Below are positions 6,075 through 49,822 of a stretch of DNA of 49,963 nucleotides, piece by piece. Position numbers and translations under genes: made by a program. The stretch's first letter is position 1; the number at the start of each line of letters is the position of its first letter. This DNA is from an uncultured Bacilli bacterium (lineage in GTDB: Bacteria; Bacillota_I; Bacilli_A; RF39; UBA660): the NCBI GenBank assembly GCA_944358405.1, contig CALVQX010000013.1:1-49963 (forward strand), read 5' to 3'. The notes under the pieces were generated by a model that was given only the letters and a program-made list of their open reading frames with translations, searched no databases and was not told the DNA's origin.

Positions 6075-6097
6075 ATTTCCTCCTATTAAAAAGGAGA

Positions 6098-31879: not shown

Positions 31880-32172
31880 TCTTTATAACACCAACCTTTC
31901 CAACGATATGTTTGCCTACTCGTTAAGAACTCATAAAGTTCAATAATAATATTTAACATATTATGATAATATGGAACCGGCATCACAAGAAAGGCACAAA
32001 TTACGCCTGGACTTAGAACTAATATCGTTACCCAAGTGGAGCTTAGTGGCAAAAATGCTAATAAAATGATTGTCACTAGTACACCAGAGCAAAATAGAAT
32101 TAAATCAAAAGGCCTGAATATTCCTAAAATTAATTGTCCTTTCTTTGTATTTGCGGGAATTAAATAATTCAC
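31864..32172 (-). CDS. PrgI/VirB3-like membrane protein
   Basis: A 102-residue protein of the PrgI family: 'IPANTKKGQLILGIFRPFDL' then two membrane segments (about 25-45 and 48-66), and 'TYRWKGWCYKEW'. These play the VirB3 part in Gram-positive type IV systems and lie directly before VirB4, as here. Start is GTG 32172, with AAGGAG 11 bases before it. Confidence 0.9.
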   Translation of the reverse strand: MNYLIPANTKKGQLILGIFRPFDLILFCSGVLVTIILLAFLPLSSTWVTILVLSPGVICAFLVMPVPYYHNMLNIIIELYEFLTSRQTYRWKGWCYKEWQRK

Positions 32173-32204: not shown

Positions 32205-34355
32205 TTAGTGAGGACCACCTGGAGGAGGTCCACCTGGTCCACCACCTGGAGGAGGTCCACCACCAGGTGTATCCACATTAGTTAATGGATTATCATGATA
32301 TTGACTCGTTCCTGCTGCACCAGAGTCTGCTCCAGGTCTCCATCTATTTCCGTCTTTTCCTCCTGTAATTACAGTACCTGGACCATAATGTACGTTTCCA
32401 TGTTCATCTACTGTTCTTTCAACTAATCTCTGATGATCTGTCCTTCGAGCAACAAAACCGTTTCTAATAACTCCTCGACTACCATCTTCATCATAAAAAT
32501 CTGGTCTATTTGTAATATTGTTAGCACCTGGTAATCTTTCTTTCCATGAGCGACGGAATTTTTCTTCGGCACTTGGAGTAATACGATGTGTATCTGCGAA
32601 CTTTTTAATCTCGTCATAATCTTTTCTTGCCTTACTTGCGGCGGCTTGGCTATTATTCATCCGTTGATATGCACGTTGTCTAGCCAAATCAGAAATTACT
32701 TGATTACCATTATGATCTGTAGTTATTAGTCCTGACATAGCTAATTGATCCATTTCTTGCGAAGTTAAATTTCCTTGTACTAGGCGATCGTAATAGTCTT
32801 TTGCATCTGCTGCTTGACTTTCTAAATTATTTACACGGTTCTTTTCTTGATCAAGACCCGCTTTTGACACACCATAATTTTTCCATGCAGCATTAATTCC
32901 TGCACTGCGCATCAATCTATCATTGATATTATTAAATAATCCACCTTTGGCTTTGGGATCTCCAGTTTTAATTTGAGCTGCTAAATCAGCACCCGTTCGC
33001 CAAGCTGGTGGGGCTTGTTTTCCTTGTGCCTGTGCTTCCATTGCTGCACCACCTGCATTCATTCCAGCAGCTAAGGCTCCACTGATACCAGCTCCACCAA
33101 TTAAAGCAGCAGTTCCACCTAGCATAGCATTTAATCCTACACTGCTTGGACCACCTTTAATACCTAACACATCCTTAATAAATTTAGGAGCCTGTTTTGC
33201 AAAGATAAATAGCCCTAAGCAGATGAAAATGAATGAGAAAATACCTACGAATCCACCTGCTTGATTGATTACAATTCCGTTTACAATCATGTCTTGAATT
33301 AAGAAGATTACAAAGTAAATAATTGCTAGTCGTATAAAAATATCTAGATAGGTAGTCATTAGTGCTTTTACCCAAGCTCCAAATGCTCCTCCATCTTTTC
33401 CTTGAGGGCCCATATAACTAATAATTGGGATTGGAGCAATTAATCGCAATACAGCTAGTTTTACAGCCCTAACTGCAACATCTACCGTATAACTGATTAA
33501 TATGAAGGAAAATACAAATGCTACGATACCACCGATTACTGGCCTATATGCAAAAGCATAATGACTGGTACCAAATAGTTTTTGAACGGCACTTGTTAAC
33601 TTGGAAAACCATCCACTGCTTCCAGTAGAAGCACAAGTATGATTTACTAAAGCAAACAAATCTCCTGGATCTGCATCTAGTCTTGTATAAACGTTGATAT
33701 AATCATCTGGCAAATCAGAACATACCCAGTTTTCTTTTATTGTGTCTGCTCCCTTTCCTTCTGGTGGAGCTACCTGATCTTCTTCTGGTATTAAGTTGAT
33801 GCGAATAAATCCTTTTAAAATTGTCGATGTAAAAATATCAGCAGATTGGGCTAATCTATTATTACTTGTTTGAACATCAGATGCTTCATCCGTGGTGCCT
33901 AGAATCAGTCGTCCTAGTGTATTATTGGCTAAAATACGATTTTGTAAAGAATAAAGTGTACCAAATAATAATCCGTTATTATTTAATTCTACTTCATATT
34001 CATTAGAAGCATTAGGAATATTAATTGGTACAAGTACCACTAGCATAGTCAATGCAATAATTACTCTACTAATAATGTTACCAATCCCTGCTTTTTGATC
34101 TGTAATTCTTTCCGGTGACATAATTCCTTGTAAGATTGTAACCGCTAATTTAAAGATCATGAAAACTCCTATGATCAATTGCATTCGATAATAGAAGTTT
34201 CTAACCGTAGAATTGCTGAACAGTTCAGCAGATGCTACATTAAAAAATATTTCATATACTAATCCTAAGATAAAATAGGCTGGGCGGTCTATCAGCCAAG
34301 ATGCTACAGTACGTATGGCATCACTAATTACATCTGCTTTCATTCCGTCTGTCAT
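32205..34355 (-). CDS. VirB6/TrbL-type polytopic membrane protein
   Basis: A 716-residue protein. Membrane segments lie at about 27-45, 55-75, 90-112, 265-290, 335-360 and 365-390, with an extracytoplasmic loop of about 140 residues between 115 and 260. 'VAVRAVKLAVLRLIAPIPII' and 'GAFGAWVKALMTTYLDIFIRL' are typical of the TrbL/VirB6 core. After a Gly/Ala-rich stretch there is a charged coiled coil (about 500-600) and an end rich in Gly, Pro and His. Forms the inner membrane channel. GAGGTGG precedes ATG 34355. Confidence 0.88.
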   Translation of the reverse strand: MTDGMKADVISDAIRTVASWLIDRPAYFILGLVYEIFFNVASAELFSNSTVRNFYYRMQLIIGVFMIFKLAVTILQGIMSPERITDQKAGIGNIISRVIIALTMLVVLVPINIPNASNEYEVELNNNGLLFGTLYSLQNRILANNTLGRLILGTTDEASDVQTSNNRLAQSADIFTSTILKGFIRINLIPEEDQVAPPEGKGADTIKENWVCSDLPDDYINVYTRLDADPGDLFALVNHTCASTGSSGWFSKLTSAVQKLFGTSHYAFAYRPVIGGIVAFVFSFILISYTVDVAVRAVKLAVLRLIAPIPIISYMGPQGKDGGAFGAWVKALMTTYLDIFIRLAIIYFVIFLIQDMIVNGIVINQAGGFVGIFSFIFICLGLFIFAKQAPKFIKDVLGIKGGPSSVGLNAMLGGTAALIGGAGISGALAAGMNAGGAAMEAQAQGKQAPPAWRTGADLAAQIKTGDPKAKGGLFNNINDRLMRSAGINAAWKNYGVSKAGLDQEKNRVNNLESQAADAKDYYDRLVQGNLTSQEMDQLAMSGLITTDHNGNQVISDLARQRAYQRMNNSQAAASKARKDYDEIKKFADTHRITPSAEEKFRRSWKERLPGANNITNRPDFYDEDGSRGVIRNGFVARRTDHQRLVERTVDEHGNVHYGPGTVITGGKDGNRWRPGADSGAAGTSQYHDNPLTNVDTPGGGPPPGGGPGGPPPGGPH

Positions 34356-34382: not shown

Positions 34383-35888
34383 TTAATTTAGACCACAAGT
34401 TTGATCGGTAGTGATTCCAAAAATCGTTAATAATGTATTCACTAGATCTGGAAGGAAAAATAGAGCAATTGCTAATACTAACCTAATTCCTAATCTTTTT
34501 TGAGCTTTTTTCATGCTTTCCTCGTCACTTACGATAATTGATTTTGCAAAATCCACACTACTTAATACTAAAACTAATAGTGGTCCTAATAGTTTAATAT
34601 AATTTAGCATTTTTTGCAAGAGCCACGCTACAGAATCCGGATTATTTACATCTCCTAATAAAGAGTTGCACTCTACATCACCATCATATCCTTCTAGCCA
34701 TTCTTGCATATCTTCTTGAGTAATTCCTTCCTCTGTTGTTGTATCTTCTGGATCTCCTAAGGAACCTCCATAGGAAGTGGACCCAAAAGCCTGTCCATCT
34801 GCTGCTCCTAGTTCATTTTTAGAACATACTCCACTGGATACCGATAATTCATAATTATATTTTTTGTTTCCCGTTTCTGTGACACAACGGTAGATCTCTT
34901 CTGGACATACTACTTTTTTGTCTTGATATATTTTCGAAATTAAGGAATCATTGATCGATATCTTGGCAGTATGTTCATTACCAACATTTACTTCCCAACT
35001 TGTATTTACTGAACCATAATTTTTTCCATCAATAGACCATTCTCTACTTCCATCACTATAAATTCTAAAATATGGAAAGAAATATCTTCGACTATTATAG
35101 GCACCAATTGCAGATCCTACACAACTACTGACGATTTTTTTACTAGAAAGAGAGTTCTTTTTAGCCTCTTCTGATAATGTTATCTTGCTTGCCTTTAAGC
35201 TTTGACATTCTCCTGCACATTCTTCTTGGTAACGCTCCTTTGGAAATACAGTAATGGAAGTCTCTGTCTTTTCTATAGAAAGTGTAGGACACGTATAATT
35301 TCCATCTTCTGTTTTTGCTGCTTTTAAGAAGACTTTTTTAAAATCTGCCCCATGATACCATAAATGACCATCTTTTGCTAGATCTTCTTTATCACTGAAA
35401 GCATATCCTAAGACGTCACTTGAAAAAATATGATAGGTGAAGTTGACATTTGCTGTAGAACTTTTATATGTATATTGACATTGTAAAATTTCTGTTTCGT
35501 TATCATTATTGGCAAGGTTTTCTTTCGATAAATTTACTACGGAACTTGCTATTCCTAAAGATTGAGCTGCGGTTTTATTATTTGAAACATAGATGTTTTG
35601 ATCACTTGATGTAGAGATATATTTAGGACAAGTAGCATTGTTACTTTCCATTACATATTTTCGCATTTGGTTCCAATTTGGTATTTCTTTTTCGGACTCT
35701 TGTGCTACTCCGTTTAATTTATCAACAATAGCTAAAGCAGTATAATCTTCATATATTTCAATCATTACTTGAGTTTTGCTATCATTATATGTACACTCTT
35801 TAATTGCTGTTTTGGCATTGGCATTTATCGGATTCAATATTAATATGCTGAAAAAAAACAAAAAACAAATGACGGCCTTTTTTTTCAT
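34383..35888 (-). CDS. Cys-rich ectodomain protein with VirB2-like C-terminal hairpin
   Basis: A 501-residue protein: signal peptide (1-25, 'NANAKTA'), a Cys-rich outside domain to about 410, then two membrane segments. The C-terminal 85 residues ('LLGPLLVLVLSSVDFAKSII', 'SDEESMKKAQKRLGIRLVLA') align with the small VirB2-like gene just upstream ('PIILIVLGTIDLGKAVI', 'SSDDKEVKGAQSRLIKR'). It looks like a pilin hairpin carrying a large head, perhaps a tip or minor subunit. It starts a new transcription unit with its own promoter. Confidence 0.75.
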   Translation of the reverse strand: MKKKAVICFLFFFSILILNPINANAKTAIKECTYNDSKTQVMIEIYEDYTALAIVDKLNGVAQESEKEIPNWNQMRKYVMESNNATCPKYISTSSDQNIYVSNNKTAAQSLGIASSVVNLSKENLANNDNETEILQCQYTYKSSTANVNFTYHIFSSDVLGYAFSDKEDLAKDGHLWYHGADFKKVFLKAAKTEDGNYTCPTLSIEKTETSITVFPKERYQEECAGECQSLKASKITLSEEAKKNSLSSKKIVSSCVGSAIGAYNSRRYFFPYFRIYSDGSREWSIDGKNYGSVNTSWEVNVGNEHTAKISINDSLISKIYQDKKVVCPEEIYRCVTETGNKKYNYELSVSSGVCSKNELGAADGQAFGSTSYGGSLGDPEDTTTEEGITQEDMQEWLEGYDGDVECNSLLGDVNNPDSVAWLLQKMLNYIKLLGPLLVLVLSSVDFAKSIIVSDEESMKKAQKRLGIRLVLAIALFFLPDLVNTLLTIFGITTDQTCGLN

Positions 35889-35966: not shown

Positions 35967-36307
35967 TTAGTTTCCTGCTGCTCTCCAACAGTTTTCCCAA
36001 CTAGTTGCATCTCCAACATTACTATCATCAGCATTCGATAATAAAGACATAAGTAGAGTAACGATAGTTACAACAAAGAAAATTGCAACTGCATAAATAC
36101 AACGTTTAATCAATCTACTTTGTGCGCCTTTACTTCTTTATCATCACTAGAAATCACGGCTTTTCCTAAATCGATCGTTCCAAGGACAATCAAAATAATG
36201 GGAATACCTATTTGAATGATAGGGAAAACACCTTTTCTAATCACTTTTACGATTGGTAATAATCCGCCACAAGGATCCGTAGCAGCTATTTGAAATAAAT
36301 TTGACAT
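35967..36307 (-). pseudogene. VirB2/TrbC-like pilin with an apparent -1 frameshift
   Basis: The open frame from ATG 36307 gives 65 residues ending at TGA 36110 ('...SSDDKEVKAHKVD'). If one base is re-read at about 36128 (GTAAAGGCG), the protein goes on as 'KGAQSRLIKRCIYAVAIFFV' to a TAA at 35967, about 113 residues. It then has three hydrophobic helices, and the joined part aligns well with the C-terminus of the 501-residue neighbour. So this is one small pilin-like gene split by a shift. It may be an indel, an assembly error in an A tract, or programmed frameshifting. GGAGAGG precedes ATG 36307. Confidence 0.7.
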
Positions 36308-36367: not shown

Positions 36368-37351
36368 TTATCTTCTAAACAAACCAAAGATTTTGTTGGA
36401 AGACTCTTTCTTTTCTTCCGTTTTTGTTAATAGACCAATTCTTCCTAAAAAGTCACTAATTACTCCGTTCCTTTTTCGCTCATCTAAGGGGGGCATATTA
36501 TAAAACACCTTGGTATTGGCCTCATATTCAAAATCAGTGATATCTTTATTAGATAACAAACTTTTATTTAATATTAGTTTTTTCCCTTTTAATTTTGAAA
36601 ATATTGTATGATTTCTTCTAATTAGCTTATTTAATTTAATAATACTTGGTTCTAATAGATATAAAACATCACCACAAATAGAATCGTCTGTTGAATCATT
36701 TAAATCTATTAATATAATCGATGCGTTTCGATATCTTTCAATAATACTACGCAATTGAGCACTAGTGGTTGAGATCATATTCTTATCGTTAAATACGCTA
36801 AAATCATTTTTATCTACTTCAATGGCTACTACTGCATTGCCTAATTCTACTGTTAATTCTTTTTTTAACATATAAATTAACGTAGTTGCTCCGGCATGTT
36901 CTGTAACATTTCTAACTCCAATTATTTTGGTTCCATTTTCCACTTTGTTGACAATGGTCGTAGATAGATCGTTGAGTTGTTGAATATGTGCCACATCTTT
37001 ATATGTATTACTTTTTTTAATTAAATATTTTATTCCATCTAAGTTCGTTGTAAAATTATAAATTCCAACGGAAATTAACTTAGATAGAAAATTAGAGGTA
37101 CATAAATTACTGTTTTCTGGTAAAAAGAAAATGATTTTTTCTACATCTAATCCCATCGCTAAGGTTTGATAACTTCTGATGTCTTCATAATTTTTAATTG
37201 CTGTTACATCTAGAACCATTTTATTGTAAAAAAAGCTTTTAAACATTTCTACAATTTCACTTGCTTCGTAGGTACCAGTAATACTTTTTATAATGTCAAT
37301 ATCTAAATTAGATAATATATTCTGTTGACTATTTGCTATTACAACATTCAT
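36368..37351 (-). CDS. CpaE/TadZ-like protein with degenerate Walker A
   Basis: A 327-residue protein. The first 110 residues form a receiver-like alpha/beta domain; the rest resembles the MinD/ParA-type fold of CpaE/TadZ. The P-loop place reads 'IGVRNVTEHAGATTLIYML', in which the lysines of the Walker A are missing, and 'ASIILIDLNDS' follows as the beta strand with Asp. TadZ places the Tad machine in the cell. ATG 37351 is preferred to GTG 37363, as GGGTGA lies before it. Falls between the TadE-like and VirB2-like genes. Confidence 0.75.
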   Translation of the reverse strand: MNVVIANSQQNILSNLDIDIIKSITGTYEASEIVEMFKSFFYNKMVLDVTAIKNYEDIRSYQTLAMGLDVEKIIFFLPENSNLCTSNFLSKLISVGIYNFTTNLDGIKYLIKKSNTYKDVAHIQQLNDLSTTIVNKVENGTKIIGVRNVTEHAGATTLIYMLKKELTVELGNAVVAIEVDKNDFSVFNDKNMISTTSAQLRSIIERYRNASIILIDLNDSTDDSICGDVLYLLEPSIIKLNKLIRRNHTIFSKLKGKKLILNKSLLSNKDITDFEYEANTKVFYNMPPLDERKRNGVISDFLGRIGLLTKTEEKKESSNKIFGLFRR

Positions 37352-37381
37352 TTCATTTATCACCCTTTTCTACATTAGGGA

Positions 37382-37819
37382 TTAATTGTTGGGATCTATC
37401 AACTTTGTACTACCAGATACTTGGAAAAAGCGAAGGCCAATTCTATTGATAATCGGTATTTCTATATTGATTTTTGTCACCACTTCATAATAGAATTTAT
37501 TGCTTCCGTCAATTCCACCAGTATCAGTAGAGGCCTCTACCCTTCTAATGCAGTAACCTTTTTCCATTCGGCAATCATATCCACTTAATCTAAAGCCTTC
37601 TGCATTATAACCAATTTCTTTCATATAATTTGTAATTGTTCTATCACAAGCGCTTTCCTCAGGACAAACGCCTTCATATTGCTCAAGTGTGCTTATTATT
37701 TTGTTTTTAACGCGAAAAGCCTTTGTATAATTCACATTAAAAGCTAAATAACCGCTAACTAATACTAAGAAAACTACGATGATAGCAATATTTACAATTC
37801 CACCAAAAGCATCCCGCAT
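37382..37819 (-). CDS. TadE-like pseudopilin
   Basis: A 145-residue protein with an N-terminal membrane helix (about 8-28, 'IVNIAIIVVFLVLVSGYLAF') and an outside domain with four Cys ('CPEESAC', 'YDCRMEKGYC'). It ends with 'VVTKINIEIPIINRIGLRFF', a pattern shared with TadE/TadF-like minor pilins (the 'P.....' and 'V.G.T' end). It lies directly between the Flp-like pilin and the CpaE-like gene, as in tad loci. Confidence 0.65.
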   Translation of the reverse strand: MRDAFGGIVNIAIIVVFLVLVSGYLAFNVNYTKAFRVKNKIISTLEQYEGVCPEESACDRTITNYMKEIGYNAEGFRLSGYDCRMEKGYCIRRVEASTDTGGIDGSNKFYYEVVTKINIEIPIINRIGLRFFQVSGSTKLIDPNN

Positions 37820-38078: not shown

Positions 38079-38888
38079 CTACATATTAAACATCATCATC
38101 ATAGAAATTAGTATGACTAGCATCACACCTATTCCTGTCACTACTAGCATAATCATCGTTTGATTTTCCATATGATTTAGACGTTCTTTATATTTTGTTT
38201 CCCTAGCTTTATTCTGTAGATTTGATACAGTCTTTGAAAACATCATTAATCGTTCTTGCTTTTTTTCTTGAGAACCTAGTCCTAAACGATATAATAGACG
38301 CATCATTCTCATCGAGTCTCTTACGGGATAGGTATTTGCAAATTCCATATAAGGATCAATTGAGGAATCTCCTGAATTAATCCGATCTATTAATTGCCTT
38401 AATCCTGGTTTAAAGATATCTGGAGCATCATCAATTGATTTTCCTAATGCTACCGGAACTGTATAATGTTGAATTAATATCTCTAAACTTTTTAAATAGT
38501 ATGGCAACATAACATCGATTTCATGAAGATGTGCTTTATAATATCTTTTTAAACTACTGTAACTTGATTTGAACATGACCACGGCCACAACAATAGCTAG
38601 TACTAAATTTAAGAAAAATTGGGAATCTATTAAACTATCTGAACTACTACTTCCTATCGTAAAAGCAAAAACTACGAAGAATGCGATGATCGAATAAAAT
38701 ACTCTTTTAATATATAATTGATCCGCATCTACATCTTCTCCGTATTTGGCATACACTAAGAAGTTATAGTCTTCTTCACGAAATATTTGCAAGTATTTTT
38801 CATTATCTGCAATAAACTTATTCTTATCAATCGTATTATTATAGATTAACATACCCATAATAATTACACCTACAATTAGTACTTCCAT
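38079..38888 (-). CDS. tadC: TadC-like inner membrane platform protein
   Basis: A 269-residue type II secretion F-domain protein. Membrane segments lie at about 3-15, 66-82, 88-106 and 245-266. The F domain is 'EIDVMLPYYLKSLEILIQHY' with 'DSMRMMRLLYRLGLGSQEKK' near 200. Platform on which the CpaF ATPase acts. Its start overlaps the stop of the tadB-like gene by one base (38888), so it is coupled. Confidence 0.85.
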   Translation of the reverse strand: MEVLIVGVIIMGMLIYNNTIDKNKFIADNEKYLQIFREEDYNFLVYAKYGEDVDADQLYIKRVFYSIIAFFVVFAFTIGSSSSDSLIDSQFFLNLVLAIVVAVVMFKSSYSSLKRYYKAHLHEIDVMLPYYLKSLEILIQHYTVPVALGKSIDDAPDIFKPGLRQLIDRINSGDSSIDPYMEFANTYPVRDSMRMMRLLYRLGLGSQEKKQERLMMFSKTVSNLQNKARETKYKERLNHMENQTMIMLVVTGIGVMLVILISMMMMFNM

Positions 38889-39790
38889 TATTCTGCACCT
38901 ACATTCTCATTATAGTATTTTTCTCCTTTTAATAAGAAGTATGTATTAATGATCAAGGTACCATGAAGTAATAATTTAATGTACCATCGATCTAGGAGAA
39001 TTAAATAAGTTTCTCTTCCTAATAAGTATTGAACAAGCATTACCATTAAATATAACATAATACCAAATTGTAAAAATGATTTATGGAAACTAGCACGTTC
39101 AATTCTATCTCTATATACACTTTCTACTAACATATCAATATCTAGTTGCATGTTATCTAAGGAATCCGCAGAATTTCTAGCTCCTTCTTTTGTAATTTGA
39201 AGAAAGAGTTGATGCATATTCTTTACAATATAGTATGGATATAGACCACTCATATACTCTAGAGATTCATCAATACTTCCATTTTGATAAGCTAACTCTA
39301 TCATATGATCTACATCTTTTTTTACTGGATCTTCTAAGATTCCTGAATTTCTAACTCCTTCTAGAGCTTTTACAAAAGACTGGGTAGTAGCAAATTCCAT
39401 AATTACATTGGAGGTGTATACTTGGATTTGTTCGAAAAGAAACTCACTGTAAATTCTTTTGCAACGTAGATAGGATAAGTAAGGAACAAACATGATTACT
39501 ACAGCTATATATATAATACAAATTACTAGATTATAGAAATATAAGTAAGTAACTACCCCTGTAAAAACAGTTAGAGCAATTACTTGTACCATATATTGTC
39601 TTGGAGTATATTCCTGACCTAATTCTTTTGTCTTTTCTCTTACCATCTTAAAGGAGTATGGAGCATATCTATCATAAATTTCTTGAATCTGTTTTGTAAT
39701 AAATTTCCCAACGTTTTGCCCTTTATAATTTCGATAGGCATAGATCCCAAGAAAGATTACGGAAATAATTACTAATTCTTCAATATACAT
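38888..39790 (-). CDS. tadB: TadB-like inner membrane platform protein
   Basis: A 300-residue protein of the type II secretion F family. Membrane segments lie at about 1-17, 70-105, 245-262 and 270-290. The middle has 'EFLFEQIQVYTSNVIMEFAT' and 'LDNMQLDIDMLVESVYRDRI'. Paired TadB and TadC proteins form the Tad platform. Directly after cpaF (16 bp) and before tadC (1-bp overlap). Confidence 0.85.
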   Translation of the reverse strand: MYIEELVIISVIFLGIYAYRNYKGQNVGKFITKQIQEIYDRYAPYSFKMVREKTKELGQEYTPRQYMVQVIALTVFTGVVTYLYFYNLVICIIYIAVVIMFVPYLSYLRCKRIYSEFLFEQIQVYTSNVIMEFATTQSFVKALEGVRNSGILEDPVKKDVDHMIELAYQNGSIDESLEYMSGLYPYYIVKNMHQLFLQITKEGARNSADSLDNMQLDIDMLVESVYRDRIERASFHKSFLQFGIMLYLMVMLVQYLLGRETYLILLDRWYIKLLLHGTLIINTYFLLKGEKYYNENVGAE

Positions 39791-39806: not shown

Positions 39807-41384
39807 CTACTCTGTCCCTAATGGGGATGTTTCTAAGGCATCCAAACTTGGTATCACTGGCTGTTCTTCTGGAATGGCTGGTACTACTTGTGACTGTGCT
39901 ACTGTGCCTTGATCCCTTGAAATATCAGATGCTTCTACTTCTGATACGGCAATTGGAGTAGACATAGAATTCGTCGAATCTAGTGCTGGTTGCAATGGAG
40001 CTTGAGGTGGAATAATTGGCATATTTCCTTCCGGTGGAACATTTACTGATGCATCTTGTCCTACTGGTTCCATGCTAGTTGCATTTTCTTCTGCCTGTTG
40101 AAATTGATTTTCTTGGTGTGGGATACTCGCCTTATTATTTTCTTCCACTTCTGCTACCGCTTGAGGCTGTTCTTGTTGTTTTTCTGTTGTTGTTTGCTCT
40201 AGTGGTGGTTGCATTGATTCCTCCATTGGAGCTTGGCTTTCTTGATTTTCTTCCACTGGGTATGCTGATTTCTTTTCTTCTTCTGATGCATCTTGGCGAT
40301 CCTCTTGGAATGGTACGTCCTCATTTAATCTTGATGTAATTTCATTAATATCAATATTTTGATTTTCCAAGTACTCTATTAAATGTTTGCTTGGCTTTCT
40401 CATAATTGGCTCTTTGCCAAACATTTTTTGATAGATCACCCTAGTCTGTGGTTTGTTATCCTCATCTACATAAAATTCTACTACTTCATCTACTTCACGA
40501 TGAAATTTACCATATTTTTTACTATAATAGGCTTTAATATGTACACCTATTTGAATATAACGATAAATTGTTGTTAAAAACTGATTTACATCTAAATCCG
40601 TTTCCATCAAACTATATAAACGATATGGAATTGCTGATGCTTTGTCAGCATGAATTGTTGATAATATATTATGTCCAGAAGAAATCGAGTTACGTACGGC
40701 TGTTACAGCCTCTGCACTACGTACTTCGGATAGTAATATCCACTTTGGATTCTGTCTCATACAAGTTACTAAAACATCTGTGTAACTTGCAACATTATTT
40801 GTCTTCATTGCAACGATATCTCTTTGTGGGAAAATTTTATCTAAATGCAACTCTAAGGTATCTTCAATGGTAATAATTTTTTCATTTGTTTTGGTATGAG
40901 CAGCTAAATATTTTACAAACTCTGTTTTACCAGAACCAGTTTCACCACTTACCATAATGTTACAATGTCCCTCTACACATTTAATTAATATATCGTGAAT
41001 GTCTTGTGTAAAGTAATCTTCTTTGATTAACTTTTCTTTTTCTAGACGAATTTTTGCTGGTGTTTTACGAATCACCATAGCAATTCCATTGGTAGCGATT
41101 GATGGATGAACGAAATTTAAACGTAATTCTGCTGATTCAGCATCAAGAAAAGGTTTTGCATTATTAAACGTAGTTCCCATGACATTGGAGCATTGAAATG
41201 CTAGTTTTTCAACAAACTCTGGAGTTGCCCCTTGTATTTCTACGCGCATAGAACCTTGAGTTAGAGAGCGAATCCATATCTGTCCATTATTATCATAAGA
41301 GATATCTGTGATATCATCGTTATCTAATAATGAACGTAGGGGACCAAAGTCTAGTTTATCAAATATATTTTCGTTCATATCCAC
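39807..41384 (-). CDS. cpaF: CpaF/TadA secretion ATPase with long disordered tail
   Basis: A 525-residue ATPase of the VirB11/CpaF superfamily. Domain: 'DITDISYDNNGQIWI', Walker A 'SGETGSGKT' (146-154), Asp box 'IITIEDTLELHL', Walker B-like 'PKWILLSEVRSAEA', His box 'SGHNILSTIHADKA'. Residues from about 350 to the end are an unusual Gln/Glu/Pro/Val-rich low-complexity tail of roughly 175 residues not found in ordinary CpaF. Drives Tad pilus growth; it could also stand in for the missing VirB11 of the type IV half. Confidence 0.95.
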   Translation of the reverse strand: MDMNENIFDKLDFGPLRSLLDNDDITDISYDNNGQIWIRSLTQGSMRVEIQGATPEFVEKLAFQCSNVMGTTFNNAKPFLDAESAELRLNFVHPSIATNGIAMVIRKTPAKIRLEKEKLIKEDYFTQDIHDILIKCVEGHCNIMVSGETGSGKTEFVKYLAAHTKTNEKIITIEDTLELHLDKIFPQRDIVAMKTNNVASYTDVLVTCMRQNPKWILLSEVRSAEAVTAVRNSISSGHNILSTIHADKASAIPYRLYSLMETDLDVNQFLTTIYRYIQIGVHIKAYYSKKYGKFHREVDEVVEFYVDEDNKPQTRVIYQKMFGKEPIMRKPSKHLIEYLENQNIDINEITSRLNEDVPFQEDRQDASEEEKKSAYPVEENQESQAPMEESMQPPLEQTTTEKQQEQPQAVAEVEENNKASIPHQENQFQQAEENATSMEPVGQDASVNVPPEGNMPIIPPQAPLQPALDSTNSMSTPIAVSEVEASDISRDQGTVAQSQVVPAIPEEQPVIPSLDALETSPLGTE

Positions 41385-41406: not shown

Positions 41407-42219
41407 TTAACTTTCTGTCCAAACAGTAACAGAATTGATCCATTCTTGTAATTGTTCACTACTAATGTTTACTTCTCCAGGATTCTTTTCATGGCCTTCA
41501 TTGGTTGGTACTGGAATTAGTGTTGAATCATATGTTCTTAGATATTCTGCTTTCTTTAATAAAATGTACATATCCTCTGGTACGGCAAAGACAATCATCG
41601 CTGGGGTTCTTTGTTCATCTAAATTAGAAAATACTGGTTGTCCTGATGAATCTTTTACTGCTAGTACTTTTACATTTTCTACTAATTTACCTAACATTAC
41701 TTTATCTGCATCTGCTAAGTTGGCATTTGGATCATTATCAGCAATTTTGTATACTGCTCTTAGATAGATATCAATATAGTTTCCTGGAAAAATTGAATTT
41801 CCGTAAGTAGATGCAGTGTCTACAGACATGTTATATAGTACATATCCTTTTGGATAATCAAGAATTACACTATATGGTGACTGTTCTTCTTCTACTACTG
41901 ATCTTGAGTAAAATAGACTACCTTCTGGAATAATACTATCTACTGCTGAATATTTATCAATTACTTGTGATTGATTTGTAATTACATTTCCTTTCAACAT
42001 TGCTGGTGGTACTTCCATTGTCCCAACCATTTCTTCTGTAATTTGTACCCCGGGGTTAATCGTTTCCTTTGCATAAGGTACCGTAATTGGATTTACTGCT
42101 GCTTTTACACGCATATTATATCCAATGTATAAGACAAGAATAGCAGCAACAACACCAAGTACTGTTACTGTATTCTTGTTTTGTAAGAATTTTTTAATTC
42201 CATTTCCTATGTTCCCCAT
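41407..42219 (-). CDS. cpaB: CpaB/RcpC-like SAF domain protein
   Basis: A 270-residue protein with a membrane segment at 17-35 and a SAF domain: 'VPYAKETINPGVQITEEMVG', 'IIPEGSLFYSRSVV', 'GYVLYNMSVDTAS', and the RcpC-like 'FPGNYIDIYLRA'. CpaB proteins are periplasmic or wall-side partners of Tad pili. 2 bp after the TadE-like gene and 22 bp before cpaF, as in tad operons. Confidence 0.88.
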   Translation of the reverse strand: MGNIGNGIKKFLQNKNTVTVLGVVAAILVLYIGYNMRVKAAVNPITVPYAKETINPGVQITEEMVGTMEVPPAMLKGNVITNQSQVIDKYSAVDSIIPEGSLFYSRSVVEEEQSPYSVILDYPKGYVLYNMSVDTASTYGNSIFPGNYIDIYLRAVYKIADNDPNANLADADKVMLGKLVENVKVLAVKDSSGQPVFSNLDEQRTPAMIVFAVPEDMYILLKKAEYLRTYDSTLIPVPTNEGHEKNPGEVNISSEQLQEWINSVTVWTES

Positions 42220-42221
42220 TT

Positions 42222-42719
42222 TTATTCCTCCCCATCTGTCGTATAAGTTTTTCCATCTTGGCTAATAATTACTGGATTACCAATTTCTCCTTCAGCAATA
42301 CCTTTGCTGATAAAATCATCTGTTTTTCTGTTGCTTTCAACAATTCCATCATATGTTGTAGTCAATAATAATTTAGAACTATCAAAGCTTAATACTGTAG
42401 AAGAATCTACTTTTACACTAACTTTCGGAGGGACTTCATTTAAATCGTAGAAACCGATTTTATAGTTTCTTGTATTATCAATGCTATCAGCAAAACGACG
42501 TAAGAAACTTTCTACAAATTTTTCTTTGTCCATTCTAAGTGTACCATAATCACGATAGTAACTGATATCGACCGCATCTTCCATTGAAGCTTCTACAGTT
42601 TCTTTCACCAGGTAGTAATCTAATTCACTACCTGATGAATAATTTGAAATTACATTGATTAATAGTAAAGCTATCAAGCTAAGTAAAATAATTCCAACTG
42701 TTAGCATTCCTTTATTCAC
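42222..42719 (-). CDS. DUF5411/TadE-like membrane-anchored protein
   Basis: A 165-residue protein: N-terminal membrane helix (5-25) and an outside domain with 'KETVEASMEDAVDISYYRDY' and 'FVESFLRRFADSID'. The helix-plus-domain plan and its place before cpaB fit a TadE-like pseudopilin; I also recall this pattern from DUF5411. GGAGG precedes ATG 42719. Confidence 0.6.
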   Translation of the reverse strand: MNKGMLTVGIILLSLIALLLINVISNYSSGSELDYYLVKETVEASMEDAVDISYYRDYGTLRMDKEKFVESFLRRFADSIDNTRNYKIGFYDLNEVPPKVSVKVDSSTVLSFDSSKLLLTTTYDGIVESNRKTDDFISKGIAEGEIGNPVIISQDGKTYTTDGEE

Positions 42720-42731: not shown

Positions 42732-45620
42732 TTATCTTACTGTTTCCACATAATCGTCGGTAAAGGTTTCACAAACTCCATCACGTTCATTATTACATCC
42801 AATGGTACCTAACTTGTTAGCACTAATACTAGAACCACTACCACGGAATAAATCGCTCTTATAAACAAGCACTCCGTTTTGCAGAGTAAGTGTTCCACCG
42901 AAATTAGTATAGTTATTTTGATTTTCTTTGGAATAATTCCTAATTTTTTGAATTGCTTCTTTGTCTAGAATAAATTCATAGTCTAAGTAATCAGATTGTG
43001 AATCGGCATCATAAATCGTATTACCTCGTCTTTGAATGGTTGTTAATAAAGCACCTGGAGTAATTTCATAATCTGGGTTATTTAAGTTCGTTGCTGCTGA
43101 TGTCCAGTTGAATCCTGGAGTTCTTCCTGTTTCTCCTGGTAATGAAGATTCTCCTGTTGTACTTGGGAATAGATTGGTATTATCTACACTTCTTATCCTA
43201 TATGATAGTCCTGTTTGATTTGTTGTATTTGGTGTCGAAGTGGAAGTAGATGTTGGAGTTGGTTCTTGGCAATTTGGATCTCCTGGTGTACAAGTGGTAT
43301 CTGGTGCATTGTCATATAATCCATAGAAACAATTAATATCAAAGTCCCAACTGAAGTGACCAAAATCTCTTACGGTTGCTTTAATGTTATATTCGAGGTT
43401 GTTTGTAATGTTGTTCTTTTCAGATTCTGTAATATCTGGATCCGCATTTCTTGTGACATACCATGTCCACCATTCTTCATTTACATCCTTTGAATCTAGT
43501 AAAGTACAGAATTTCTTATCACGTTTTTTCCAAGCAGTTCCTGTTACTGGCTCATAACTAATTTCTCCTGTTTTTAAGTTTTTCCAGGTTCCTGGGAAAC
43601 TCCATTCTGTCATATAATCATATTCTGTATTTGCTTCTCCATAACATCCTCCACGATCTAGGATGATATTATCTGAATCAGATTTTATATTTGTTCCACT
43701 AATTACTGCTTTATCATAATCAATCCAGTTATCTTTATTTGGTTCGCTATTTGTCTTATTGTTAACACTGATTGTAAATTCTGCTTCTTTGGTTGTACAA
43801 GATGCTTGTGCTTTACATTGTCTTACAAAATCATTATAAGTTTCTAAGTCTTCATTGTATGCTTCTATGGCATCGGATTTATTAATGTATTTTGCTCCAC
43901 ATCCTTGCCAACGGCAACTTTCTAGACACGAGGTTCTTCTTTTGAATCCATGGTATCCTGATGGAGCTTCACTACATGTATATGCTTTTCCTGGACCGGT
44001 TTCTCTAACTGTTCTTGCGGCTTGGTAAACGAAATACCATGTACCACAGTTTTCCCAATAATTTTTGCTCTTTTCTTTCGGACAATTTCCATCTTCATCT
44101 GCTGCTACTGGGCACCAGTCGATGCTTCCATCTTTTCTTCTATAGTAATATCCTTCTCCTTCGTTCACTACTGCTTTTCTTAGAGCATTATAATCTGTCG
44201 TAGTAGTATCATTTAGGATATTATACGTCTTGGCAATTTGTAATGGGGTTATATCACCATAATTTAGAGCCAGAGCATTCATGCTACTACTATCGCTTCC
44301 ATATACTTCGTTGTAACATTGGTTAATACAGCTTTGACTATATTCTCCACCATCACACTCTTGGACACATTGGTCAAAGTCATCATTTGGTCCACCCTGG
44401 GTTTCATATAGTTCTCCCCAGTTATTACAATTTGGTTTTGGAATACAATAATTATAGTCTGAATCGCTTAACTTTGGTCTTGAGGCACCTGTTACTTTAC
44501 TCTGACAATTTACTTTACTTACTACTTTTACTTTATATTCAAAGCATAATCCACCTTTGGTAGCTTGAGGAGGTCCATATTCTACTGTAATGGTTTCTTC
44601 ACAAGCAGTTTCACACTTTAAGGTCTTTCCAGAATTTTTTAACTTTTTGGTTTTTACTGTATCTGTACTTTTCGTATAGTATTTCTTTTTATTTGCATAG
44701 TAGTCTGTATCCGTAGAGTCTGTAAATGGATCACAAACTAGTGGTTGTCCACTTAAATCTGTATCGGTTACAGTAATCGCATCGGCTGGAGGTGTTAGGG
44801 AAACGGATCCTGAACCAGTTCCAATAATATCTAGACTATATGATTCAATGGTATTTACAATCATTTGAATTATATCTTTTTCACTATAACTAGCACTTAC
44901 TTGTTGGTTGTAGCAATAATCAAATCCATAGTTTCTATAAGTTTGTTCTCCAATTGCTGCACCACTATACTTTTCGAATTGTGCTTTGGTAAGTCCTGTT
45001 CCTTTGAAATAGGTCTCCCAATTGGTTCCTTCACGGAAGGCCTTACATACGGTATCATAACTTTCATTACTTACTGGTACATTGGAATAATCTCCACTAA
45101 TTGAAAATGTTTCATAGTGAATATAAGTAGAGTTGGTAGCAGATATTCCAGCACTTGCTAGTTTCTGCAATAAAGGATTATTTTTTACTTCTATATTATT
45201 CTGAGTAGTTGAGCCATCCGCAGCAGTGACTGGTGCGGTAAGGCATAGATCATCTGATGCTGATAAAACTAAGACAATCTCTAAATCTGTATCCACAGTA
45301 GTACTATATCTTATACTTACTGATTTGTTATTTGGAGTTAAATCTAATGGTGTATCAATACTAGTTGTTGTATCCCCATTTAGTGGAGTTTCTGATCTAA
45401 AAACTACAACTTTAAATGTTCCTGTTGCTACCGAAACGGTAATGGTACCATTTTCATCATCTGTCATTTCGGGTTGATATTTATTATCTGCTGACTGAGG
45501 TGAGCAACTATTTTTCACACTATTTGTTTCTGCATTGGAATCTATACAGGTTATTAATAATGAGAAACAACAAATTATTATTGTTAGTAATATCTTTAAC
45601 TTTTTATTCTTCTGTTTCAT
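42732..45620 (-). CDS. Large Cys-rich secreted surface protein
   Basis: A 962-residue protein with a signal peptide (to about 'DSNAETN', residue 31) and no membrane segment after it. It has many Cys throughout ('CVQECDGGEYSQSC', 'CINQCYNE', 'CETACEE'), so it is likely disulfide-rich outside the cell. A Thr/Pro/Ser linker ('TPTSTSTSTPNTT') near 800 separates a beta-rich end domain. ATG 45620 follows GGAGG and overlaps the sortase end by 17 bp. The lack of an LPxTG-type end makes a simple sortase substrate unlikely. No family known to me; candidate adhesin or pilus tip. Confidence 0.7.
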   Translation of the reverse strand: MKQKNKKLKILLTIIICCFSLLITCIDSNAETNSVKNSCSPQSADNKYQPEMTDDENGTITVSVATGTFKVVVFRSETPLNGDTTTSIDTPLDLTPNNKSVSIRYSTTVDTDLEIVLVLSASDDLCLTAPVTAADGSTTQNNIEVKNNPLLQKLASAGISATNSTYIHYETFSISGDYSNVPVSNESYDTVCKAFREGTNWETYFKGTGLTKAQFEKYSGAAIGEQTYRNYGFDYCYNQQVSASYSEKDIIQMIVNTIESYSLDIIGTGSGSVSLTPPADAITVTDTDLSGQPLVCDPFTDSTDTDYYANKKKYYTKSTDTVKTKKLKNSGKTLKCETACEETITVEYGPPQATKGGLCFEYKVKVVSKVNCQSKVTGASRPKLSDSDYNYCIPKPNCNNWGELYETQGGPNDDFDQCVQECDGGEYSQSCINQCYNEVYGSDSSSMNALALNYGDITPLQIAKTYNILNDTTTTDYNALRKAVVNEGEGYYYRRKDGSIDWCPVAADEDGNCPKEKSKNYWENCGTWYFVYQAARTVRETGPGKAYTCSEAPSGYHGFKRRTSCLESCRWQGCGAKYINKSDAIEAYNEDLETYNDFVRQCKAQASCTTKEAEFTISVNNKTNSEPNKDNWIDYDKAVISGTNIKSDSDNIILDRGGCYGEANTEYDYMTEWSFPGTWKNLKTGEISYEPVTGTAWKKRDKKFCTLLDSKDVNEEWWTWYVTRNADPDITESEKNNITNNLEYNIKATVRDFGHFSWDFDINCFYGLYDNAPDTTCTPGDPNCQEPTPTSTSTSTPNTTNQTGLSYRIRSVDNTNLFPSTTGESSLPGETGRTPGFNWTSAATNLNNPDYEITPGALLTTIQRRGNTIYDADSQSDYLDYEFILDKEAIQKIRNYSKENQNNYTNFGGTLTLQNGVLVYKSDLFRGSGSSISANKLGTIGCNNERDGVCETFTDDYVETVR

Positions 45621-46416
45621 CATTTCCTCCACCTTTCAATTTTTCTTTTATTGCTTTATAATTTTCTTTTTCTTTTACACTGTAATTCTTTGCTTCTTCA
45701 TTTTCTCTTACCATTCTAGCATCAATTTTGAAGGTATAGTCATTTGTATATCCATAAAATCTAGTACAAGTAACCAGAGTAATTATATTATCGGTCTCAT
45801 CAACATCTATATCAAAGTCGAAATAGCTATCTTCTAATGATTGTTCAATGTATTCTTTTTGCTCTTCTTCTGTAGGATTTCCACTAGTATAATCTAGTGG
45901 ATCATCTTCTACAATTGCCACAGAAAATATTTTATATAAATAATCTTTTCCATCGATAGTAAATTGAATATATTTATTTTGTTTTACAAAATCATAATAG
46001 ATGTAAGACATTAATTGTTCAAATCTAGTATGCGAAGGATTGGTAATTAGGGGTTGGCTGGAAACATTTCTAATGTTGTGGCCAATGATAAAAACTTTCT
46101 TTGTCAGTTCGCTAATATCTGTTTCCATCCAGACAAAATCTTCATCGGTAATATCAGCCATATCCACATCTGCAGAGTTATAGATTACAGGATAATCAAT
46201 GTTTGTCCCCTGAACTCTTATCCATCCTAGCTTTTCTACTTTTTCATTGGCACTTTGATAATTATTTAAAGCTTCTATTCTTGTTTCTATAGAATAAATC
46301 GTTTTATTTTGTGCCAGTAAAAAGTTTATCAGTAATCCTGCAACTAGGATAATTAAGAGGACTAGTATTCCAATGTATTTATTTACTCTTCGCTTACTTT
46401 TTTTGTTTTTTTTCAT
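45604..46416 (-). CDS. Class B-type sortase
   Basis: A 270-residue sortase: N-terminal anchor (about 14-34), then the sortase barrel with 'LGWIRVQGTNIDYPVIY', His113 ('FIIGHNIRN'), Cys217 ('ITLVTCTRF') and Arg234 ('KIDARMV'), the full catalytic trio. The sequence plan before the Cys and the long helix ('EEEQKEYIEQSLEDSYF') fit class B. No protein in the window shows a clear sorting signal, so the substrate is open; a pilus or the 962-residue protein is the context guess. AGGAG before ATG 46416. Confidence 0.9.
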   Translation of the reverse strand: MKKNKKSKRRVNKYIGILVLLIILVAGLLINFLLAQNKTIYSIETRIEALNNYQSANEKVEKLGWIRVQGTNIDYPVIYNSADVDMADITDEDFVWMETDISELTKKVFIIGHNIRNVSSQPLITNPSHTRFEQLMSYIYYDFVKQNKYIQFTIDGKDYLYKIFSVAIVEDDPLDYTSGNPTEEEQKEYIEQSLEDSYFDFDIDVDETDNIITLVTCTRFYGYTNDYTFKIDARMVRENEEAKNYSVKEKENYKAIKEKLKGGGNDETEE

Positions 46417-46437: not shown

Positions 46438-48255
46438 CTATTTTACGATTTGATATGGATCTTGTTTTGTTCCTGAACCACTTAAAATTTTGCAATTTTT
46501 ATTTAAATAGCCAACAATTCTAGCATAAGATGTTGTTCTATCACTTAGTTTATCGTAGTACACTACACCATTATCGGAAACCATATATTTTCTCTCTACT
46601 TCTCTAGATGAATTGATTAACCAATAACTACCTGTTGTATTTGCTGATGAAGTAAACATTTCATACATATTTGGAGCAGCAAATCTTACGGTATATTCTT
46701 TGGTTGTACTCTCTTCATTATATTTGACTAAATTCTTATAAATTGGAACTTCTATTTTTTTATTTACAAAATATCCACTGTTAATATAGTCTCCTGTTTT
46801 TTGATTGATCACATATCCAATGTTTCCTCTTTGCGTTGGATCGTAAATCTTTGATTCGTCTGTTGTTTCATAAGCAATTCCGGAAGAGAAATCACCTTGT
46901 TGTAGTGTATCTTCCATAATTACTTTGATGCTATTATCTTTTGCTACTTCCATAATTCTCCAGATATATCCAGAATATTCTAGATATTCCCCACTATATC
47001 TGGTATTTAAATTATCATTTGCTTTTCCTTTGGTTGTCTCTTCTAATGAATATGGATTATCTTCTGTTCCATCTCCACTTTTGATTACTTCGTCTCCTTT
47101 GATGGTTAGTACTGGACGAATGCCAAAGTTATAGTCTTTATCAAAGGCCATATAATTTTGTCCATTTACCATATTTTGAGCATCATAATTAATAAATCTG
47201 ATCTTGGTAGCCCAAGCTTCTTCTTCATTTTTAGAATTTGCTAGCCAACTAATCGTTGCTGGATATAAGTAACTTTCTCCAGCCTCATCTAGTGTCTTAT
47301 TAATATCTTGAGCAGATAAAATATTGTATGTATTTGCTTTTGAATTAGAGCTGCATTCTTTGGTTGTTGATACATTTTCTTCAGTTAAAGTATCGGTACA
47401 ATGAGTATTTTCTACTAAATATTTTTTCGCTTCATCCGTTAGATGATCTTTAAAATATTCTAGCCAGTCATCTATGGCATCATAATTTACATTTGCAATA
47501 TCGTCACTTGTAACAATTCTTACATTGTCTCCATCCACGTCTATTATCCGGAAAAGAATATTAGAAAATCTAATATAATTACTTACTCCTGTTCCTGTAT
47601 AAACACCTGTATTTTCTGTATCATTTAATACGGTATTTTTTAATCGCTGTACTACATTTACTGTTCTAATTTTTACCGTTTCATTATCTAGACTATCTGC
47701 TATTGTATATTTTACTTCATATGTTCCAATTTGATCTGTTTTTACTTCGCTAGAATCAATTACCACATCTTTCGTCGACATTTTTCCATCACTATTATCA
47801 ATGACACTTTCTACTCCTAATTCTTCATATTCTTCCCCTTTGTTTATCGTAATTTCTTCCTCGCCTTTTAATGTAATTTCTGGTCCTTTATGATCTACAA
47901 TAGAAGATAAAACTCCACACTTTAAATAAGTATAATATTTATACTCTCCATCTTCCTTTCTTACTTTCACCCAGCTTTCTTCGATCGAACAAGTATCATT
48001 GCTATATGGTACATAAAGATCCTCGGTTAAAAATGATTTATGGGCTAATTCTTTCAATGTTACGGTACCTACTCTACTTCCAGATGGTAGTTCATTAGGA
48101 TATACTTCATAATATCTTTTTGCTGCTTTTAAAAATTTATCTTCATTTCCTTTAAATTGAAGATATGGTCTTAACAGTAAAAACCATACAAACAAGCCAA
48201 CAATTACACAAGTAATAATGATCTTTAAATACTTCTTTATCTTTTTATTTTCCAT
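46438..48255 (-). CDS. Surface protein: pseudopilin-like head, Ig domain, two DUF6273-like domains
   Basis: A 605-residue protein. Membrane segment about 9-29; pseudopilin-like head to 115 ('FLKAAKRYYEVYPNELPSG', 'TYLKCGVLSS'). An Ig-like domain spans about 120-205 ('GPEITLKGEEEITINKGEEY', 'IGTYEVKYTIADSLDN'). Then come two copies of a DUF6273-like domain: 'YIRFSNILFRIIDVDGDNVR' to 'GIRPVLTIKGD', and 'YLEYSGYIWRIMEVAKDNS' to 'ARIVGYL'. Both copies end 'GTEDNPYSLE' or 'GTKQDPYQIV'. Related to the 395-residue protein at the other end of the cluster. Confidence 0.75.
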   Translation of the reverse strand: MENKKIKKYLKIIITCVIVGLFVWFLLLRPYLQFKGNEDKFLKAAKRYYEVYPNELPSGSRVGTVTLKELAHKSFLTEDLYVPYSNDTCSIEESWVKVRKEDGEYKYYTYLKCGVLSSIVDHKGPEITLKGEEEITINKGEEYEELGVESVIDNSDGKMSTKDVVIDSSEVKTDQIGTYEVKYTIADSLDNETVKIRTVNVVQRLKNTVLNDTENTGVYTGTGVSNYIRFSNILFRIIDVDGDNVRIVTSDDIANVNYDAIDDWLEYFKDHLTDEAKKYLVENTHCTDTLTEENVSTTKECSSNSKANTYNILSAQDINKTLDEAGESYLYPATISWLANSKNEEEAWATKIRFINYDAQNMVNGQNYMAFDKDYNFGIRPVLTIKGDEVIKSGDGTEDNPYSLEETTKGKANDNLNTRYSGEYLEYSGYIWRIMEVAKDNSIKVIMEDTLQQGDFSSGIAYETTDESKIYDPTQRGNIGYVINQKTGDYINSGYFVNKKIEVPIYKNLVKYNEESTTKEYTVRFAAPNMYEMFTSSANTTGSYWLINSSREVERKYMVSDNGVVYYDKLSDRTTSYARIVGYLNKNCKILSGSGTKQDPYQIVK

Positions 48256-48265: not shown

Positions 48266-49822
48266 CTATCTTATTCTGTAAACGTAATGATTATTTCTAA
48301 TTGTGAAATCGAGCGTGATTTCCTTGGCCGTTTCAATTTCTGCTGGTACTTTTATATATAAGTATTTTCCATAATAGGTTTTTCCGATGGCATTTTCTAT
48401 CGGTAATATCTTTTCCTGATCTTTATTATCTATGTAATTAATTGTACCATATTTCGATGAAAAGTCAATCATATCTTTATCTTCAAATTCGTTGGAAATA
48501 TAATCTAATTTTAAAATTTTATAGCCTTCTGGAGAGGTGTAATTCTCTGTCGTTAGACGACAGCCATCACTTTGGCATGTCTGCTTTGAATAAGTAATGG
48601 TATCCAATAGTATAGCATCATCCAAAATTACTTTTTTCTCTTTATTATTTTCTATAAAGGTTATCTCTTCTGTTAATGTCTTTTCTTCTTGCTCTTTGAT
48701 TTGTGATATGTCTTGTAGAGATAATTTTATTTTTCTTAAATAGTTGGTATTATCGTTGTTAAATTCTTGGTAATATAAAACAAAGTCATGATAATCTAGT
48801 TGAGAAGAAACTTTATATATCATCAAAAAGGCAAGTTCTTCCCCTTGTTTTATCGTCCTATTTTCATAAGTTTTTCCTAGATCTTGAAAATAGGTTTCAT
48901 AAGTTTTTTTGGTAGGAGAATAATTACTAATTCCATTCATTAGGTGGAAGCGGTTAAAATTAATGTCTCTTTTTTGAACATTATTTTTTATGGTGACATC
49001 TAAGATTACAAAGCTATCTTCTTTAGAAATGATGTCTCCTTTATAATCTTTATCTGTATAGTAGGCATTCTTGATATTGATTGTATATCCGTTTGTGTTA
49101 ATTGTCTCTCCTTGTTGATATGATTTATTTACCACAAAGATATAGTTATACGTTTGATAGGCGGTGATCACTAGAAAAATAAAAATGAGTGTCCAAATAA
49201 TTCGTTTGTGTTCTTGATATACATATCCTATATTTCTAAGGAATCTTTTAAAGCTTCTTTTGATACTTTCTTTATCAATATCAATATTGATTTCCATTTC
49301 TTCCCGATCTTCACTATCAAGTTCTAGATATTCTTGGTCTGTTTGAAAATTAAATTTATTTAAGTCTACTCCAAAGATACGCATCAATAAAATAATAAAT
49401 ACTGGATATTGTGGAATTGTAAAAATAAATAAAATATCTCTTACAGCTCTTGCTCCAGTGGTTTCTAATTGTCCACTATAATCATTAAAAAAGCTTCTTG
49501 TAATTAAAAAGGCAACAAATAAAGCTAGATATTCAAAAAATACAATTAGATATAACTTCCATGGTTTTTGTTTATGGCGTAGTAAGATAATTAAGGCAAC
49601 GGCTGCGGCAATAATCAAAATTAATGCAAAAAAAGCTAGGCCTGTAATATATCCCGATATTGGTTCATTATATGCATCATAGGTTCCTAACGATAAGAAT
49701 TCATTCACAAAAGAATTTGTCTGTACCGTCTTATAATAAATATAGGCACACAATATCAGTAAAAAAACGTGAATCTTTTTAAAATTTTTGATTAAAAAGG
49801 CATAAGGTTTTCTAATAATCAT
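48266..49822 (-). CDS. Polytopic membrane protein with extracytoplasmic domain
   Basis: A 518-residue protein. Five membrane segments lie in the first 155 residues (about 15-32, 60-80, 90-110, 130-152), then a cytoplasmic stretch with 'DLNKFNFQTDQEYLELDSED'. A further membrane segment sits at about 210-230, and an outside beta-rich domain of 280 residues follows ('DSFVILDVTIKNNVQKRDIN', like DUF4352-type domains). No known family. First gene of the cluster; AGGAGAAAAAG precedes ATG 49822. Confidence 0.65.
   Translation of the reverse strand: MIIRKPYAFLIKNFKKIHVFLLILCAYIYYKTVQTNSFVNEFLSLGTYDAYNEPISGYITGLAFFALILIIAAAVALIILLRHKQKPWKLYLIVFFEYLALFVAFLITRSFFNDYSGQLETTGARAVRDILFIFTIPQYPVFIILLMRIFGVDLNKFNFQTDQEYLELDSEDREEMEINIDIDKESIKRSFKRFLRNIGYVYQEHKRIIWTLIFIFLVITAYQTYNYIFVVNKSYQQGETINTNGYTINIKNAYYTDKDYKGDIISKEDSFVILDVTIKNNVQKRDINFNRFHLMNGISNYSPTKKTYETYFQDLGKTYENRTIKQGEELAFLMIYKVSSQLDYHDFVLYYQEFNNDNTNYLRKIKLSLQDISQIKEQEEKTLTEEITFIENNKEKKVILDDAILLDTITYSKQTCQSDGCRLTTENYTSPEGYKILKLDYISNEFEDKDMIDFSSKYGTINYIDNKDQEKILPIENAIGKTYYGKYLYIKVPAEIETAKEITLDFTIRNNHYVYRIR

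Follow-up and report, generated by a model that had tools for sequence, protein, structure and literature searches.

Predicted paralogous proteins with C-type-lectin-like DUF6273 domains at both ends of a conserved Tad-like and type IV secretion locus of uncultured Bacilli

A DUF6273 domain forms the N-terminal part of ThomasA, the IgA peptidase of Thomasclavelia ramosa (PDB: 9qa6). The name is given there to residues 31–322, and the protein is secreted, with an M64 peptidase after this domain and an SPXTG motif at its C-terminus (PMC12402451). In gut phages, hypermutation is known to target DUF6273 domains: the tentaclins, encoded in DGR cassettes of the phage genomes the authors examined, have an N-terminal lectin domain followed by Ig domains, and the relevant passages already report the resemblance of DUF6273 to the C-type lectin fold (PMC10743442). 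On the side of the secretion machinery, the CpaF/PilC/DUF5411 operon of Roseburia, Ruminococcus and Eubacterium, all of the class Clostridia, is predicted to be secretion-related, and VirB4 is absent from the main text describing it (PMC9523054). In Cutibacterium acnes, tad is a plasmid-borne accessory trait; it adjoins conjugation genes, VirB4-like and TcpC-like, and is accompanied by an FtsK-like translocase and, on some plasmids, a sortase (PMC5696575). Literature queries on RF39 with Tad or type IV secretion, on VirB4 with Tad, on DUF6273 and on DUF5411 returned no title describing a locus like the one below among the matches listed. Term searches in the main texts of PMC7301438 and PMC13155120 found no passage on type IV systems, pili or Tad; in PMC12306168, type IV pili come up for a different lineage.

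The window analysed here is the whole stretch of 49,963 nucleotides from contig CALVQX010000013.1 of an uncultured Bacilli bacterium (RF39, UBA660). A preliminary description, made from the letters alone, had placed DUF6273-like domains in two proteins, and both open reading frames are indeed present on the minus strand, encoding a 605-residue (46438–48255) and a 395-residue (22874–24061) membrane protein. By sequence, Pfam and profiles, the 605-residue protein has the order TM-head-Ig-lectin-lectin: an N-terminal transmembrane segment, a head (residues 33–120; 47896–48159), an Ig-like domain (PF16403, residues 127–201; 47653–47877; E = 6.9e-15, above the cut-off), and two DUF6273-like copies, D1 (residues 207–408; 47032–47637) and D2 (residues 409–605; 46441–47031). 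The Ig-like domain between head and D1 was absent from the preliminary description and recurs in 17/17 family members of the 605 type in Pfam searches. The 395-residue protein is predicted to consist of a cytoplasmic tail, a transmembrane segment, a head (residues 60–149; 23615–23884) and a single DUF6273 domain, D3 (residues 150–395; 22877–23614).

A pattern scan recovered the end motif G.GT..[ND]PY.[IL] and the head motif YL.CG where they had been placed. The end motif matches three times among the 45 window proteins, twice in the 605- and once in the 395-residue protein, and in 0/200 shuffles; both proteins contain YL.CG exactly once, against a shuffle mean of 0.03. The start motif in its original wording had no exact match, but with one additional residue of spacing and a Y permitted at the first place it marks exactly the three copies.

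Profile–profile comparison of families built from relatives of each protein (locus L030 being excluded from the 605 alignment) gave E = 1.5e-32 for D1 with D3, 1.6e-21 for D1 with D2, 1.2e-15 for D2 with D3, and 9.8e-18 for the two heads. Five cross-domain controls all remained at E of at least 0.012, and in 65 further comparisons, run against 13 other protein families encoded by the locus, E was at least 0.014. In sequence searches, single profiles of D1, D2 and D3 each recovered both copies of the 605-residue protein and the copy of the 395-residue protein. The two-plus-one count of domains and the common head proposed earlier are borne out by these comparisons, and the three copies align as profiles rather than by low complexity alone. 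A chance motif match was considered for the three copies and is ruled out by the profiles, the controls, the shuffles and the single-profile searches. At the level of profiles, the three domains are thus shown to be homologous, as are the two heads. The two proteins are paralogues.

The Pfam family DUF6273 (PF19789) matches D3 with E = 1.6e-8 and 35.1 bits against a gathering cut-off of 23.5, and gives no match at E ≤ 1 to the window's 605-residue protein, in which D1 and D2 lie. Across relatives, 49/62 members of the 395 type match at E ≤ 0.01 and 8/17 of the 605 type at E ≤ 0.1. An NCBIfam search with both proteins was uninformative.

An AlphaFold2 model of the 395-residue protein, built with 61 relatives, reached a pLDDT of 90.9 and a pTM of 0.81, with a transmembrane helix at residues 28–59, a head built of helix and sheet, and a long domain of beta structure. 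Structural Z scores were taken from a VIA-align run over Foldseek's list, with the tool's noise mark at 8. The best match of D3 is 9qa6 (Z 16.8, rmsd 3.2, 201 residues aligned over 9qa6 residues 32–303), a structure of the same fold and Pfam family. Below the noise mark follow the C-terminal domain of Legionella Lcl (8q4e, Z 7.3), the fimbrial protein BACOVA_04982 (4eps, Z 6.5) and many C-type lectins (Z about 5–6.2). We take Lcl and BACOVA_04982 to have adhesin and pilus-tip roles. BFVD yielded 16 matches at E ≤ 0.001, five of them named DUF6273 proteins; Foldseek alone found no PDB match to the 395-residue model at E ≤ 0.001, and among PDB sequences the profile of the 395 family matched nothing in its DUF6273 part. 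The model of D2 is of low confidence (pLDDT 55.2 overall, about 90 in its best parts), and its best match is also 9qa6, at Z 7.1 with the next at 3.9. The label "DUF6273-like" used from the outset is therefore backed by both profile match and predicted structure, and the model establishes a C-type-lectin-like fold as the predicted fold of D3.

All listed open reading frames longer than 133 residues between 22874 and 49822 lie on the minus strand, as do all features placed below. Next to the 605 gene at the high-coordinate end is a gene for a 518-residue membrane protein (48266–49822), and on its other side one for a class B sortase-like protein (45604–46416; PF04203, E = 8.3e-9, above the cut-off), which resembles SrtB structures with a best E of 2e-13 and scores 53.8 bits against the NCBIfam srtB equivalog, below its cut-off of 153.75. 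A 966-residue Cys-rich secreted protein with no informative Pfam or NCBIfam match (42732–45632) precedes a DUF5411 protein (42222–42719; PF17424, E = 3.6e-48), a CpaB/RcpC-like protein (41407–42219; PF16976, E = 4.8e-7, barely above the cut-off) and a TadA/CpaF-type ATPase (39807–41384; PF00437, E = 5.4e-28), to which CpaF structures (E = 7e-20) and archaeal FlaI (2e-20) are equally close in the PDB. Two membrane proteins (38888–39790 and 38079–38888) occupy the TadB/TadC position; they have no Pfam T2SSF match, show weak profile similarity to each other and are assigned by position. Also placed by position are a 145-residue pilin/TadE-like candidate with an N-terminal transmembrane segment and no Pfam match (37382–37819) and a protein in the CpaE position with no informative Pfam match (36368–37363).

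The remainder of the block has the character of a type IV secretion system. A 501-residue secreted protein (34383–35888) with no informative Pfam match ends, on reading its sequence, in a two-helix VirB2-like C-terminus. It is followed by a VirB6/TrbL-like protein (32205–34355; PF19597, E = 9.6e-7, barely above the cut-off), by a small membrane protein of no assigned family in the VirB3/PrgI position (31864–32172) and by VirB4 (29544–31879). The last is split over two genes that recur side by side in relatives, a 182-residue N-terminal part recognized by position (31331–31879) and a 596-residue ATPase (29544–31334; PF19044, E = 4.7e-13; VirB4-like structure, E = 1.5e-55). Further on lie a transmembrane protein with a SpoIID domain and a weak C39-like domain (27157–29517; PF08486, E = 6.1e-10; C39, E = 0.005, below the cut-off), a 259-residue protein of conserved position with no family assigned (26368–27147) and a VirD4/TraG coupling ATPase (24079–26307; PF02534, E = 8e-56), next to which the 395 gene is found. 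Taken together, the 27 kb block reads as a hybrid of a Tad-like system (TadA/CpaF, CpaB) and a type IV secretion system (VirB4, VirB6-like, VirD4). The Tad-like motor (TadA, CpaB) and VirB4, VirB6-like and VirD4 genes also share one conserved block across window positions 24079–45632 and loci L074–L173. The SpoIID-domain protein is a candidate cell-wall lytic enzyme in the role of VirB1. A small two-helix VirB2-like gene at 35967–36307 is split here over two frames of 65 and 48 residues; in many relatives it is a single frame of about 100–130 residues.

Gene order was compared over 80 named loci, those that ranked highest by VirB4 similarity among 569. The order from TadA to VirB4 was kept in 53/53 of those holding both, and the 395 gene directly followed VirD4 in 70 of the 74 loci with VirD4. 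The remaining four comprise one with the 395 gene inside the locus (L169) and three without it beside VirD4, one of which ends at VirD4. Among 12 distant loci the order was kept in 11, a count that is no fair sample because all 12 were picked for having TadA and VirB4 on one contig; six of them place a 395-like gene between CpaE and VirB4. The 605 gene adjoins the 518 gene in 17/17 loci and the sortase gene in 16/17, the single miss coinciding with a contig end. Over 30 partly overlapping loci, the sortase gene lies beside it in 30/30 and the 518 gene in 28/30, the two loci with no detectable 518 neighbour being second copies (L194, L209). Two copies of the 605 gene were seen in genomes G140 (L209, L191), G206 (L194, L210) and G004 (L019); the five of these copies that were read all adjoin a sortase gene and three also a 518 gene. 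Synteny is thus established. Gene order places the 605-residue protein in a 518-605-sortase module, specific to the clade, that heads the predicted Tad/type IV secretion locus; the same comparison makes the 395-residue protein a frequent, not obligatory, member of that locus.

The spread of the machine was followed in a family sample of 117 genomes, one per genus. VirB4 orthologs were found in 97/117 (at least 63% identity), VirD4 orthologs in 101/117 (at least 48% identity) and TadA in 96/117; the VirB4 and VirD4 counts exclude genomes G082 and G093, whose sequences reach 32–33% and 37% identity, respectively. VirB4 and TadA occur together in 86 genomes, singly in 11 and 10, and neither in 10 (Fisher p = 2.6e-4, from a hand tally with one unlisted genome inferred and with kinship and incomplete assemblies uncorrected). 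In one genome (G014) about 1 kb separates the sortase gene from a contig start (L179), which can explain why VirB4 and TadA were unseen there. In a class sample of 296 genomes, all 34 VirB4 matches (E ≤ 1e-120) fall in the window's own family, and the genomes shown in an order sample all come from that same family. Among the relatives that have names are 'Candidatus Onthousia' and 'Candidatus Faecimonas', listed as Bacilli incertae sedis in NCBI. The relaxase family PF03432 occurs in 17/117 family genomes and gave no match in this genome at E ≤ 1e-6, so the presence of the machine does not depend on this relaxase family. The 605-residue protein itself was found in 17/117 family genomes, this one included, and in 28/31 genomes from the genera possessing it plus two near genera.

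DUF6273-like proteins are also found away from the locus. Near full-length homologs of the 395-residue protein are present in 57 family genomes, a count that excludes weaker or longer-frame matches such as those in G071 and G026. In 28 of the 57 the gene lies within 12 kb of a machine gene (VirB4, TadA or VirD4 on the same contig), adjoining VirD4 in 11 and on the Tad/VirB4 side in 17, and in 29 it does not. Some of these 29 are at contig ends; the 23 that were inspected lie among varied chromosomal genes, with no other gene of the machine in the surrounding stretch examined. Two genomes, G023 and G029, carry a 395 homolog with VirB4, TadA and VirD4 unmatched at the thresholds used. Within this genome, a Pfam search for DUF6273 exceeded the cut-off at the 395 gene only, and a match on contig C47 fell below it and was not accepted as real. 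Contig C28 encodes a 471-residue protein with two DUF6273-like copies (residues about 91–280 and 289–465) and no head match in a profile search. At 2870–6328 of its locus (L174), this transmembrane protein is flanked by two proteins that, by reading, combine a VirB2-like two-helix start with SGNH-like and C39-like parts. In a relative (G072), a 611-residue protein matching the 605 query mainly over the Ig-like region (residues 118–230) adjoins a 395-like gene on a contig other than those of TadA and VirB4 (L236 on C75).

The preliminary description had argued from the shared domains at the two ends that the whole 27 kb is one functional unit. As a syntenic unit it is well supported by conserved gene order; the shared domains as such are no proof, since a third DUF6273-like protein is encoded on another contig and 29/57 of the 395 homologs are unlinked. 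The combination of head and DUF6273 found in both end proteins, with the head undetected in the third protein, favours a tie between the two ends.

Surface recognition on behalf of a pilus/secretion machine is the most likely role of both proteins, with a probability of about one half. They are paralogous, N-terminally membrane-anchored and presumably surface-exposed proteins, in which a short membrane-proximal head, possibly pseudopilin-like, would hold C-type-lectin-like DUF6273 domains outward: one in the 395-residue protein and two, beyond the Ig-like domain, in the 605-residue protein. Both belong to the conserved locus of Tad-like pilus motor, type IV secretion apparatus and sortase. As its receptor or adhesin subunits, they would bind to glycans or proteins of a target surface and so let the machine make contact. 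The membrane anchor and the C-type-lectin-like fold, which is often used to bind sugars or proteins, make the earlier reading of DUF6273 domains as surface-recognition modules plausible, and lectin-shaped domains placed at both ends of the block may be the parts by which the machine touches other surfaces.

The same proteins might instead be general surface lectins or glycan-binding proteins that sit beside the machine by inherited gene order only, as the unlinked half of the 395 homologs and the frequent matches to both proteins elsewhere in the family's genomes would suggest; the near-constant sortase neighbour of the 605 gene and the recurrence of the 395 gene at two different places in the locus speak against this, and we consider it possible but on the unlikely side. 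Somewhat less probable still is a purely structural function, with heads that, like minor pseudopilins, prime or cap a Tad-like pilus and DUF6273 domains that form its tip or plug without a specific ligand. The places of both genes in the locus are conserved, and the head of the 395-residue model resembles type II pseudopilins (GspI, XcpV and a pseudopilus model) at Z 4.5–5.0. These values, however, lie inside the tool's stated noise range, profile comparison linked the head neither to the pilin-position protein nor to DUF5411, and reading of the sequences found no prepilin signature G-xxxx-E (E at +5). For the "pseudopilin-like head" of the preliminary description there is thus a weak structural resemblance and, by reading, no prepilin processing signature.

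Diversification in the manner of the DGR-targeted tentaclins, with fast change that varies the ligand or escapes phages, would draw on the shared domain family and on the distribution of sequence change. Over 52 within-genus pairs of the 605 family (one genome per species, same-genome copy pairs of G140 and G206 included, gaps counted as differences), mean identity was 51.8% for the transmembrane part, 62.5% for the head, 59.1% for the Ig-like domain and 52.0% for each of D1 and D2; in D3, some of the highest variability falls on residues 204–215 and 348–371, the latter around its last hairpin. The excess divergence of D1 and D2 over head and Ig is moderate, common to the transmembrane part and partly due to gaps; it is compatible with, and no proof of, ligand-driven divergence. 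A DGR in this genome was rejected, as no reverse transcriptase (PF00078) was found at E ≤ 0.001 in the assembly, which is about 90% complete, and we regard such diversification as very improbable. A phage origin of both proteins was likewise discarded after two pattern-based scans found no relative in viral contigs.

Returning to surface recognition as the preferred role, a wider and distinctly speculative extension, which we would sooner doubt than adopt, sees a family-wide and apparently order-wide, vertically inherited chromosomal machine in which Tad motor and VirB4/VirD4 act as one with no dedicated relaxase. The membrane-anchored lectins at its ends would choose the target for contact-dependent delivery or uptake, in a life with a host or with neighbouring bacteria. 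In these hard-to-grow gut bacteria, conserved gene order ties the DUF6273 fold to a pilus-secretion locus. If the lectins aim the machine, knowing their ligand would reveal the surfaces to which bacteria with such reduced genomes attach. The Tad/VirB4/VirD4 hybrid, which most of the family's sampled genera possess and which was confined to this family in the class sample, offers a concrete, testable gene set.

Set against the described systems, the DUF6273 domains here differ from that of ThomasA in ending a transmembrane-anchored protein in which Pfam found no enzyme domain. Tentaclins likewise join DUF6273/C-type-lectin and Ig-like domains (PMC10743442). The 605-residue protein departs from the tentaclin layout of N-terminal lectin, subsequent Ig domains and C-terminal anchor Ig: its lectin domains come last, its gene is chromosomal, and neither a reverse transcriptase nor a viral relative was found. 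The operon of Roseburia, Ruminococcus and Eubacterium shares with this locus the CpaF ATPase and DUF5411 and belongs, unlike it, to the Clostridia. The Cutibacterium acnes plasmids are likewise a hybrid of tad and VirB4-type genes; in contrast to that plasmid-borne trait, the locus described here is chromosomal and present in most sampled members of a family.
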